A stretch of 20,386 nucleotides of DNA from a virus, in IMG/VR virus record IMGVR_UViG_3300022562_000006, positions 1-20,386 of that record; one strand, given 5' to 3'. The notes below the pieces were generated by a model. The model did not search any database and was not told the DNA's origin. It was given only the letters and a program-made list of their open reading frames with translations. The translations under genes were made by a program, and so were the position numbers. This document shows, one piece after another, positions 346 through 10,480 of the stretch; positions within the stretch are counted from its first letter, which is position 1; each line of letters opens with the position of its first letter.

Positions 346-513
346 TCAGCTTTTGCGCTTGGAATAGATAGACCAAGCAGCCGTTGCCAATGTCGCAACA
401 GCGCCGCCAAGCGTGGTTGCGGTTTCTGCGTCAATCATTCCTTGTCCGACAAAATAGCCGCCAAGGGCCGCAACGATGGCGCGAACCACGCCTGCGATTT
501 GTTCACCAGTCAT
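346..513 (-). CDS. Holin, probable internal in-frame start within the endolysin gene
   Basis: The last 55 codons of the endolysin frame can be translated alone. Three consecutive ATG codons (519-511) follow an AGGAG at 524-520. The third ATG, at 513, lies 6 bases from it, an ideal distance. The product has a short N-terminus (MTGEQIAGVV), a first hydrophobic span about residues 6-28 with GGYFVGQG, a second about 32-52 with GGAVATLATAAW, and a basic tail SKRKS. This matches small two-span phage holins of the type I remember being named Pam3-gp28 family. Such proteins form membrane lesions that release the endolysin. That a signal-less lysozyme needs a free holin supports separate synthesis. 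The separate product is an inference from the ribosome binding site, while the holin-like segment itself is clearly visible. Confidence 0.6.
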   Translation of the reverse strand: MTGEQIAGVVRAIVAALGGYFVGQGMIDAETATTLGGAVATLATAAWSIYSKRKS

Positions 514-1011
514 CATCATCTCCTGAAAAATGCGGACACTGCCGCGTGGTGTTGTGGTTTTCGATACTGGGGTCAGGAACAGCTTACGCTCTGCCTCTCT
601 ACGCCGAACCAAGCCACTTAGAACCCTTCCACCTGCCTTGTCCCAAAGAAGGATAGCGTTGGCAGCTTTCTCTTTGTCACCAGCGTTGAATGCAGACAAC
701 GCCGTAGACTTCTTAAACGCACCCGGCCCAATATTGTATGCCAAGGATACAAAGGCTCCAAACTCATTCTCGTTGATCGGAGCTGTGATATGAGGCTCAA
801 TCGACGCAGCAAACTTTTCCAAAGCCGCGCGAAGATATTTTTCAGCCTGATCTTTGGTGATCTTCATGCCAAGGCTTGGCTTAATACCAACGTCGGCCGT
901 TGCGGTGGTGCCATATCCAATGGTGAGAATTTTTGCAGGGCAAAGATACGTTTCCGCACGGAAACCTTCAAATTCCTTGACCATATCAACGGTGGCCTGA
1001 TTGACGTTCAT
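346..1011 (-). CDS. GH24 endolysin fused in frame to a C-terminal holin
   Basis: Residues 1-146 are a phage-type lysozyme (GH24), which cuts the MurNAc-GlcNAc bond of peptidoglycan at the end of infection. E15 sits in FEGFRAETYLC, C24 at the position held by Asp in T4 lysozyme (E-x8-D-x5-T), and T30 in LTIGYGTT. NEFGAFVSLAYNIG (82-95) and GLVRRREAERKLF (133-145) are family-typical. No N-terminal signal or SAR segment is present. Residues 147-164 are a linker, and 165-221 form a two-span holin (about 172-194 and 198-218) ending in SKRKS. Lysozyme and holin are normally separate proteins. Here no stop separates them, so the full product would be a membrane-anchored lysozyme. The start at 1011 overlaps the upstream gene as ATGA and has GAGG 8 bases upstream. 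A sequencing error removing a stop cannot be excluded. Confidence 0.85.
   Translation of the reverse strand: MNVNQATVDMVKEFEGFRAETYLCPAKILTIGYGTTATADVGIKPSLGMKITKDQAEKYLRAALEKFAASIEPHITAPINENEFGAFVSLAYNIGPGAFKKSTALSAFNAGDKEKAANAILLWDKAGGRVLSGLVRRREAERKLFLTPVSKTTTPRGSVRIFQEMMMTGEQIAGVVRAIVAALGGYFVGQGMIDAETATTLGGAVATLATAAWSIYSKRKS
511..525 (-). promoter_or_regulatory. Internal Shine-Dalgarno and triple ATG for holin
   Basis: Read on the minus strand, CAGGAG is followed directly by ATGATGATG. The AGGAG is in frame inside the endolysin coding sequence, where it is translated as Gln-Glu before Met-Met-Met. Only the second or third ATG has usable spacing (3 or 6 bases), and the third is preferred. 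A strong ribosome binding site exactly at the lysozyme/holin junction is best explained as the retained start of a once-separate holin gene. Confidence 0.6.
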
Positions 1012-1238
1012 TTCCCGACCCTCGCAATCAAAGCCTTAATGTCGTCTCTGATTTCTGCCAGCATCTTGTTGGTTTCCTCCCGAGAAAGTCTTGATGCCTC
1101 CAGATCCTCCCTGCGCTGGTTCCACAGCCGCTTGATCTCGCGGCTGTTTTCAACGCTGCGCGCTTCAAGCCGGATAAGCCACACAAGTGACGCCACGAAT
1201 GCGACGGCTACGGGCCAAAACGTGCGGACAAGATCCAT
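1008..1238 (-). CDS. Small one-span membrane protein with coiled coil, lysis-cassette accessory
   Basis: The 76-residue protein has an N-terminal hydrophobic segment (about residues 5-23, WPVAVAFVASLVWLI) followed by a long charged helix with heptad-like spacing (about 26-75) ending in IARVGK. It lies between the transglycosylase and the endolysin-holin, and overlaps the latter as ATGA. A GGAG 8 bases upstream supports the start at 1238. The topology (short cytoplasmic end, one span, long helix) is like an inner-membrane spanin (Rz type). I found no overlapping or adjacent lipoprotein (Rz1 type), so a two-component spanin is not shown. Alternatives are a second holin or antiholin, or a small virion membrane protein. 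The role is inferred from position only. Confidence 0.7.
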   Translation of the reverse strand: MDLVRTFWPVAVAFVASLVWLIRLEARSVENSREIKRLWNQRREDLEASRLSREETNKMLAEIRDDIKALIARVGK

Positions 1239-1255
1239 TCACAACACTCCAGAAA

Positions 1256-1810
1256 TCATCTCAGGTTGAACTGTTGCAGGATAGCATAAGGATCATATGC
1301 CGCCAGAGCATCAGACTGCGCCAGTCGCAATTCTGGAAGCCGGAACGGCGGCATCCTGGCCGTCGAGGCGATGCCGTAATCTTCTTCGACAGGCTGGCCC
1401 ATAGCCAGCGGCAGGTTGGCAGATGCGCCGTTGAATGCCCGATCAGCCGCGCCAGTGCCGATGATCTTTGAGACGTAGTTTTGCGTTTCCTCAAATGGCG
1501 GGATGCCACCGTACTTGCGCACGTTGCCGGGTCCAGCGTTATAGGCGGCCAAGGCCAATCGCGGGTCTCCAAACTCATCGAGCTGCTGTCGCAGATACCG
1601 CGCACCCCCACGCAGATTTTGCAACGGGTCTGTCGGATCAACACCTAATTCTGCTGCCGTTCCCGGCATAAGCTGCGTTAAACCATAAGCACCCTTTGAA
1701 GATCCAGCTTCAGGGTTCCAGCTGCTTTCTTGCTGCACAAGGCGGAGAAAGAGATCAGGATTAACCCCTTCCTCCTCTGCAATGCGAATAGCTTCTGCGC
1801 GGTAATCCAT
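1256..1810 (-). CDS. Lytic transglycosylase, SLT/goose-lysozyme-like
   Basis: This is a peptidoglycan lytic transglycosylase: it cleaves the glycan strand and leaves a 1,6-anhydroMurNAc end. The SLT signature is complete. E28 is the predicted catalytic acid in VQQESSWNP, followed by [13 protein letters not shown] (40-52), AYNAGPGNV (89-97) and ETQNYVSKI (108-116). Residues after ~120 form a low-complexity tail without a known domain. There is no signal peptide. The gene lies after the tail appendage genes and before the lysis genes, so it could be a virion-carried enzyme that opens the wall during DNA entry or a second lysis enzyme. P22 itself places such activity in gp4. The start at 1810 lies 3 bases after the upstream stop and has no clear Shine-Dalgarno, suggesting coupled translation. 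Confidence 0.92.
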
Positions 1811-9255: not shown

Positions 9256-9944
9256 TAGAACGGGCCTCCGCTGTAGAACATGCCCTGACCGAATGTCAGC
9301 GGGGCCGTTGCGCCTTTAGGCGTATATCCCTGATATGCCGCGCCACGCCCAACAAGGGTTCCGACATCTCCAAGCACATTGCCCCACGCTTGGCCCCTGG
9401 CCAAAGCCGATCCAGCCTGCGCTGCGCCGACCTGGCCATACAGGTTGGAAATGTTCGCACCAGTCTGCATGCCTGCTGTGCCAACGCCAGCCGCTGCATT
9501 CTGCCCCGCCGTCGCAAGCCCGCCCAGACGGCTATACTGCTGCTCAATCAGACCAGACAGGATCTGCGGACGGAACTGCGCTAGAGCAGTTTGCACATTG
9601 CCGCCACGAAGGCCGCCAGTGGCAGCCGCATTTTGCAGGATAGCTTCCTCACCCTGACGGGTCATTGCGGCAAATTCTGGGCCTCGCTCAATGGCGGTGA
9701 TCGCCGAGCGTTGGGCTTCTTCACCGCCAAGGCCCATCAATGCGGCCTGGCGCGAAAGCGCGGTCGTGCCTGTCTCAATGTAAGGTTTAAGCAAAGCCTG
9801 CATGGCGTCGAACTGACGGCGCTGCTCTTCAATACCCTTGTCTGCCGCTTGCGTTTGCGCTGTCGCAGCCGTCTTTGCAGCCTTTGACTGCACAACGCCG
9901 CTGACAACTGACCCGCCAATAACTGCTGCCGCAATCCAACTCAT
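9255..9944 (-). CDS. Ejection protein, P22 gp7-like position
   Basis: The 229-residue protein matches the length I recall for P22 gp7. An N-terminal hydrophobic segment (SWIAAAVIGGSVVSGVV, 2-18) is followed by an Ala/Gln-rich helix, then FDAMQALLKPYIETG (45-59), RGPEFAAMTRQGEEAILQNAAATGGLRGGN (88-117, read here in two overlapping blocks) and a Gly/Ala-rich C-terminal half. This pattern is frequent in phage 'DNA transfer' or injection proteins. I chose ATG 9944, which overlaps the cupin stop as ATGA and follows a GGGG-containing Shine-Dalgarno. A longer reading starting at 10025 would add 27 residues of out-of-character Arg/Gly-rich sequence lying over the cupin gene. It is the first of three consecutive ejection-type genes. 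Confidence 0.75.
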   Translation of the reverse strand: MSWIAAAVIGGSVVSGVVQSKAAKTAATAQTQAADKGIEEQRRQFDAMQALLKPYIETGTTALSRQAALMGLGGEEAQRSAITAIERGPEFAAMTRQGEEAILQNAAATGGLRGGNVQTALAQFRPQILSGLIEQQYSRLGGLATAGQNAAAGVGTAGMQTGANISNLYGQVGAAQAGSALARGQAWGNVLGDVGTLVGRGAAYQGYTPKGATAPLTFGQGMFYSGGPF

Positions 9945-10480
9945 TGGAAAGATCCCCCGAGATATTTGTGAACCGCAGCGTCGATGGCCTGCATGTTCAG
10001 CGCCGCGTCCTGCGCGCTTTTCCACGCATCGCTCTTGTCCACGAACATTTCTTCCAGCTTATCCACGTCGGTTTCCTCAGTAGCATAAGCGTTTACGAAT
10101 ACGGTGTCCTCAATGATATAGGCAAACTTCCGACCAGGCTGCCCGGTGAAGATATATGGACCTTCAATCACCTTGGCTTCACCATTGACGATCACCGCCA
10201 TCTTGCCCTTTAGCATGATGTTCATGTGTTCATGCTTGTGAGCGTGTCCCATGATGTAAGTGCCAGCAGGCAAGAAGGCCTCGCGCATATAAATGCCGTG
10301 TCCGAAGTGGTGAGAGACCGGGCAATCAACCTGCGGCGCGGCAAGCATCATTGCCTCGATCTGATCGAGTGATGTCGCAACCGCGATGTCGTTATTGACC
10401 TGCACCAACTCGCCCTCTGCGGAACATGGCTGCTGGATGCCGTTGGTCTCAGCGTCGGCAGTATCGCGCAAATCCTTCAT
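9941..10480 (-). CDS. Cupin-fold protein of unknown role in the structural module
   Basis: The 179-residue protein has a central single cupin barrel. PAGTYIMGHAHKHEHMNIML (71-90) supplies G73, H79, H81, H83 and H85, close to cupin motif 1, although the usual Glu is not in its standard place. GKMAVIVNGEAKVIEGP (92-108) continues the barrel. Motif 2 is degenerate: GQPGRKFAYIIEDTVFVNAY lacks its His. The C-terminal part (EETDVDKLEEMF, then a helical tail ending KYLGGSF) recurs in phage hypotheticals. The histidines suggest metal binding, but no substrate is evident. The gene holds the position of P22 gp14 before the ejection genes, and I see no similarity to gp14. The start at 10480 has GAGG 10 bases upstream. 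Confidence 0.8.
   Translation of the reverse strand: MKDLRDTADAETNGIQQPCSAEGELVQVNNDIAVATSLDQIEAMMLAAPQVDCPVSHHFGHGIYMREAFLPAGTYIMGHAHKHEHMNIMLKGKMAVIVNGEAKVIEGPYIFTGQPGRKFAYIIEDTVFVNAYATEETDVDKLEEMFVDKSDAWKSAQDAALNMQAIDAAVHKYLGGSFQ

Follow-up and report, generated by a model that had tools for sequence, protein, structure and literature searches.

Endolysins in which an N-terminal catalytic domain is followed by a C-terminal membrane domain are represented by the Enc34/M4Lys type (Chivirus group; PMC8943055, PMC7143992) and by LysAP of phage AP1 (PMC8879335), and the membrane domains of M4Lys, Enc34 ORF39 and LysAP can be required for lysis by these enzymes (PMC7143992, PMC8943055, PMC8879335). 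Single endolysin genes that yield two polypeptides from in-frame internal starts are also known (PMC9430671; phi2638A, PMC12203907), and CTP1L is another such two-product gene with an in-frame internal start (PMC4777826). In these genes the shorter polypeptide usually binds the wall, and the survey dealt with phages of Gram-positive hosts (PMC9430671).

The locus described here lies in the window, by which we mean the whole 20,386-nucleotide stretch of viral DNA that was analysed (IMG/VR virus record IMGVR_UViG_3300022562_000006), and it encodes a GH24 lysozyme in frame with a holin of family PF23987 (the Pam3 gp28 family). It resembles the Enc34/M4Lys type in that a catalytic domain precedes two C-terminal membrane helices, as indicated by an AlphaFold model of moderate confidence and a Pfam holin match; Enc34 has, in addition to its two C-terminal helices, a small one-span protein upstream, and both resemble the window. 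The known enzymes have other catalytic domains (PHA02564-type in Enc34/M4Lys), or one span together with a separate holin, whereas the domain in the window is GH24 and its membrane part belongs to a stand-alone holin family that keeps its own start. As in the two-polypeptide endolysins, one stop codon could serve two in-frame products, but the short product would be a holin rather than a wall-binding domain. The literature searched contained no case of a lysozyme gene with its own holin as the putative short product.

The fused reading frame and its lysis cassette

As summarized in Table 1, the lysozyme and the holin occupy a single 221-codon frame that runs from an ATG start to a TGA stop with no internal stops. 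The lysozyme domain covers the whole Phage_lysozyme profile (141.2 bits against a cutoff of 22.3, E 2.8e-41, positions 1-125 of 125), and residues 170-220 match Phage_holin_10 over its full length (PF23987; 57.4 bits against a cutoff of 27, E 1.5e-15, positions 2-52 of 52). By sequence spacing and alignment of the lysozymes, E15, C24 and T30 occupy the positions of the E-x8-C/D-x5-T triad, which we take to be the catalytic positions of GH24. Profile and motif thus identify a GH24 endolysin, with enzyme activity predicted. Alignments show both partners to be intact, including the catalytic positions and the conserved residues of the holin. In the AlphaFold model the lysozyme part is confident (mean pLDDT above 90 over residues 1-120), the linker (residues 153-167) is disordered, and two helices form a hairpin of moderate confidence (pLDDT about 64-77); solved structures are available for GH24 relatives. 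The preliminary description of a GH24 lysozyme leading through a linker into a complete two-span holin is thus borne out by the reading frame and the Pfam matches. The presence of both domains exceeds chance by far, and their sharing of one frame has roughly a one-in-three chance, given a seam or indel and no intervening stop. A SAR endolysin was considered and rejected, there being no N-terminal span: 19-residue windows with hydropathy of at least 1.2 begin only at residue 165 and later.

Table 1. Features of the lysis region of the window.
Feature	Position	Strand	Basis
Fused GH24 lysozyme-holin ORF, 221 aa	346..1011	minus	ORF translation and Pfam
GH24 lysozyme domain, residues 12-141	589..978	minus	Pfam PF00959
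Mosaic seam, from the end of lysozyme homology to the start of amidase-tail/holin homology	546..569	minus	blastn
Remnant endolysin C-tail HAAVSAFFRR (then stop), resembling amidase tails such as AALSAFLRR	516..548	minus	Neighbouring-frame translation, blastn
Holin Shine-Dalgarno AGGAG, 6 nt before the ATG at 513	520..524	minus	Sequence, relatives
Holin from native start (third ATG), 55 aa, PF23987; further ATGs at 519 and 516	346..513	minus	Pfam, relatives
Predicted helix/span 1, residues 169-189	445..507	minus	AlphaFold, hydropathy
Predicted helix/span 2 with basic C-tail, residues 195-220	352..429	minus	AlphaFold
76-aa protein, one N-terminal hydrophobic span and charged coil	1008..1238	minus	ORF list, cassette comparison
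SLT transglycosylase-domain protein, upstream in cassette	1256..1810	minus	Pfam SLT, 91.2 bits

The holin start lies within this frame, and the third ATG with its AGGAG is the same start that is used in relatives. This start is predicted to pair with the anti-Shine-Dalgarno more strongly (-7.4 kcal/mol) than the lysozyme start does (-6.4 kcal/mol). The earlier reading of three ATGs behind AGGAG, the third well spaced, agrees with these values, and the Gln-Glu that precedes Met-Met-Met is indeed a translation of the Shine-Dalgarno, as had been proposed. The fused frame therefore contains an in-frame internal Shine-Dalgarno and start that share its stop codon, and the holin is probably made from 513 whether or not the fused frame is real.

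The portal protein matches annotated P22-like portals with up to 69% identity, and by sequence comparison the cassette is that of a predicted P22-like phage. A GH24 lysozyme fills the endolysin slot of this cassette, and a small PF23987 holin with two spans takes the slot after it. The gene for the 76-aa protein overlaps the lysozyme start by ATGA and lies directly upstream of all three endolysin kinds (GH24, amidase and M15) in many cassettes; a second holin, an antiholin or part of a spanin are possible roles for its product. On the minus strand, positions 1-345 contain no Rz-like gene after the holin, unlike many relatives, and a convergent plus-strand frame (2-226) with weak helix-turn-helix matches continues past the contig end. 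Elsewhere, a protein encoded among the structural genes (9941-10480, minus strand) has a weak cupin-domain match. A promoter and terminator scan of positions 1-1300 gave nothing above shuffled sequence.

Endolysin and PF23987 holin genes in relatives

Holin scans show that relatives encode the PF23987 holin in a small gene of its own, in most cases with AGGAG or a similar motif ahead of an ATG at the same place, and that its N-terminus most often reads MTGEQIAG or a close variant. The genes directly upstream in these scans encode endolysins that are N-acetylmuramoyl amidase-like or M15/VanY-like, classes assigned by sequence pattern and by profiles built in this analysis. Scanning more deeply with the aligned lysozymes yielded about two dozen loci in which a GH24 lysozyme precedes the holin. 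At their C-terminus these lysozymes have a short amphipathic tail, for example STLAAIFHAIVAMFQGMKK; in 16 of 20 GH24-holin loci the lysozyme stop and the holin ATG form a 4-nt overlap (ATGA). After duplicate removal, 69 of 71 distinct endolysin-PF23987 loci have separate genes (24 amidase, 24 M15 and 21 GH24), and two are fused, the window and a distant GH24-PF23987 fusion (L370:1989-2711). Judged by the portal protein, the annotated genomes closest to the window are MW202867 (69% identical) and MW202475; in both, a separate endolysin annotated as an L-alanyl-D-glutamate peptidase precedes a small gene, which MW202867 calls a holin.

The search for homologues with the same fusion, which the preliminary description had called for, thus gave one distant locus and no close relative; the other PF23987 members examined stand alone, whereas in the window a full-length member with native start and Shine-Dalgarno is in frame with the lysozyme. 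In L370 a run of A lies just before the holin ATG, and a change in its length would turn the usual overlap into a fusion. The exact junction DNA had one match among viral contigs (L435), rejected as a chance match in a locus without lysozyme or holin. A scan of genome contigs returned one distant lysozyme locus without a holin. In the named-phage collection the holin alone had no match, and the matches listed for the fusion cover essentially the lysozyme domain only.

The mosaic seam and the leftover tail frame

When the window is compared with the fetched loci by blastn, DNA similarity to tail-type lysozymes stops near 569, and similarity to amidase-plus-holin cassettes starts near 546 and continues through the holin at 76-79% identity. 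In the amidase relatives the matching stretch encodes the C-terminus of that enzyme (AALSAFLRR...) and runs to a stop codon where the holin begins, and the neighbouring frame of the window still reads a comparable tail followed by TGA at 518-516, which overlaps the ATG run. Because the two homologies end and start at this seam and the tail frame with its TGA is readable one frame over, the fusion results from mismatched frames at a mosaic seam, or from a small indel, rather than from the loss of a stop between two genes. Over a 27-nt stretch, six of seven relatives, a small and non-independent set, differ from the window at positions 1 and 3 of the tail frame and never at position 2; counted in the fused frame, the same differences fall at positions 1 and 2. 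This pattern is suggestive of a stretch that diverged as the tail of the upstream enzyme and that may have become a linker in the frame of the holin recently.

It had been proposed that the in-frame Shine-Dalgarno records a deletion that joined the two genes. The endolysin frame already contains a Shine-Dalgarno-like motif in 41 of 65 measurable separate pairs, so that this feature does not point to a deletion, and the seam lies some 25-50 nt farther upstream. A simple deletion between lysozyme and holin was rejected, since the tail frame and its overlapping stop can still be read.

The fusion in the window is a rare one-genome variant of the common separate-but-overlapping layout, or a one-base assembly error in it. 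An indel error in the contig, with the true phage having a GH24 endolysin that ends at this TGA and a stand-alone holin from 513, is a serious possibility, though on the whole we doubt it. The intact tail frame, which matches relatives, the predominance of separate pairs, many with exactly this overlap, and the A run beside the holin start in L370, a usual place for indels, all argue for such an error. Against it, the seam contains no long homopolymer, and the rest of the 20-kb window consists of tightly packed intact genes with no large gene apparently frameshifted, which points to a low indel rate and makes an error in this stretch unlikely a priori.

Tethered lysozymes and the proposed products of the fused gene

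In most of the closest GH24 relatives, which share about 70-78% identity with the lysozyme across the catalytic domain, the frame continues into another two-span module, VQASAVQIASGAGAG...IVALVFAGIVVLAALWVMRERLKKW. Like the window protein, these proteins are typically 221 aa in total, with the same catalytic domain and cassette position; an Rz-like gene comes next, and a separate PF23987 holin is absent. The two-span tail with a downstream Rz-like gene was seen in L001-L056 and others (e.g. L001:3001-3666, L207 and L198). In a Pfam search the module matched no Pfam holin and fell outside every Pfam family, and homology with PF23987 was rejected (hhalign probability 4%). M15 endolysins (15 loci) and amidase endolysins (3 loci) carry this module as well. 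The amidases of L202, L208, L217 and L219 have a further, different hydrophobic tail at the C-terminus (..LPVLRWVGVALTLAGVALMLYARWDDLKAGDKGR). A search for internal starts in the tail-fused relatives found scattered weak sites, none of them conserved, and no conserved internal Shine-Dalgarno, which distinguishes these proteins, as does their unrelated tail, from that of the window.

The premise that endolysins normally lack membrane spans therefore fails among the close GH24 relatives. By these comparisons, an endolysin fused to a two-span module is an established architecture in these phages, and fusion to PF23987 is the rare part. Because close relatives normally carry such a module in frame, usually in a protein of 221 aa, a tethered lysozyme would be an accepted product in this lineage.

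The account that we prefer, to which we give about an even chance, is that a frame slip at the seam in a P22-like cassette produced a gene for both a tethered lysozyme and a free holin. In the usual layout, a short amphipathic endolysin tail ends at a stop overlapping the holin ATG, with the holin Shine-Dalgarno inside the endolysin frame. In the window, the seam or a small indel at 546-569 would bring the lysozyme into the junction in the frame of the holin instead of that of the tail, so that initiation at 1011 would yield a 24-kDa lysozyme tethered by the holin hairpin and initiation at 513 would still yield the free 55-aa holin. If both starts are used, the fusion may lie at the inner face of the membrane and join holin assemblies, and the lysozyme may meet the wall once the membrane has been opened by the holin, a route similar to the one put forward for endolysins that end in a two-helix membrane domain. 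Two products are plausible because the internal start is the native holin start with its Shine-Dalgarno intact; the earlier suggestion of a two-product gene stands to that extent, but the gene is not a conserved one, the fusion being absent from close relatives. A fuller version, in which mixed assemblies of the two products set the lysis time and bring lysozyme to the hole and in which fusions recur through frame slips at overlapping junctions (the window and L370), is put forward tentatively and is rather doubtful. Counting against the preferred account are the single occurrence of the fusion among close relatives, with one more at a distant locus, the moderate confidence of the holin hairpin, and the plausible tail in the neighbouring frame, as expected where one base is wrong or recently changed.

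It is unlikely that only the full-length tethered lysozyme is made, with the internal start a relic and another protein, perhaps the 76-aa one, acting as holin. The tail-fused relatives, which manage with neither a conserved internal start nor a separate PF23987 holin, and the one-span protein upstream, as in phage Enc34, would fit such a single product, but AGGAG, spacing and holin start are all intact and pair better than the lysozyme's own start. A genuine recent frameshift or misjoined recombinant, neutral or defective, in which a functional holin comes from its own start and the fused protein serves no particular purpose, would account for a singleton among close relatives with a readable remnant tail, but is very improbable given that lysozyme and holin are both intact.

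If real, the fusion of the window would exemplify a direct route from overlapping endolysin and holin genes to one membrane-tethered lysis enzyme, and would help to explain why two-span tails are already fused to the GH24, M15 and amidase endolysins of many environmental phages. It would also offer a simple system for studying how a tethered endolysin reaches the wall. That endolysins of three classes have repeatedly been joined to two-span modules in environmental phages with such cassettes may be the more useful result.
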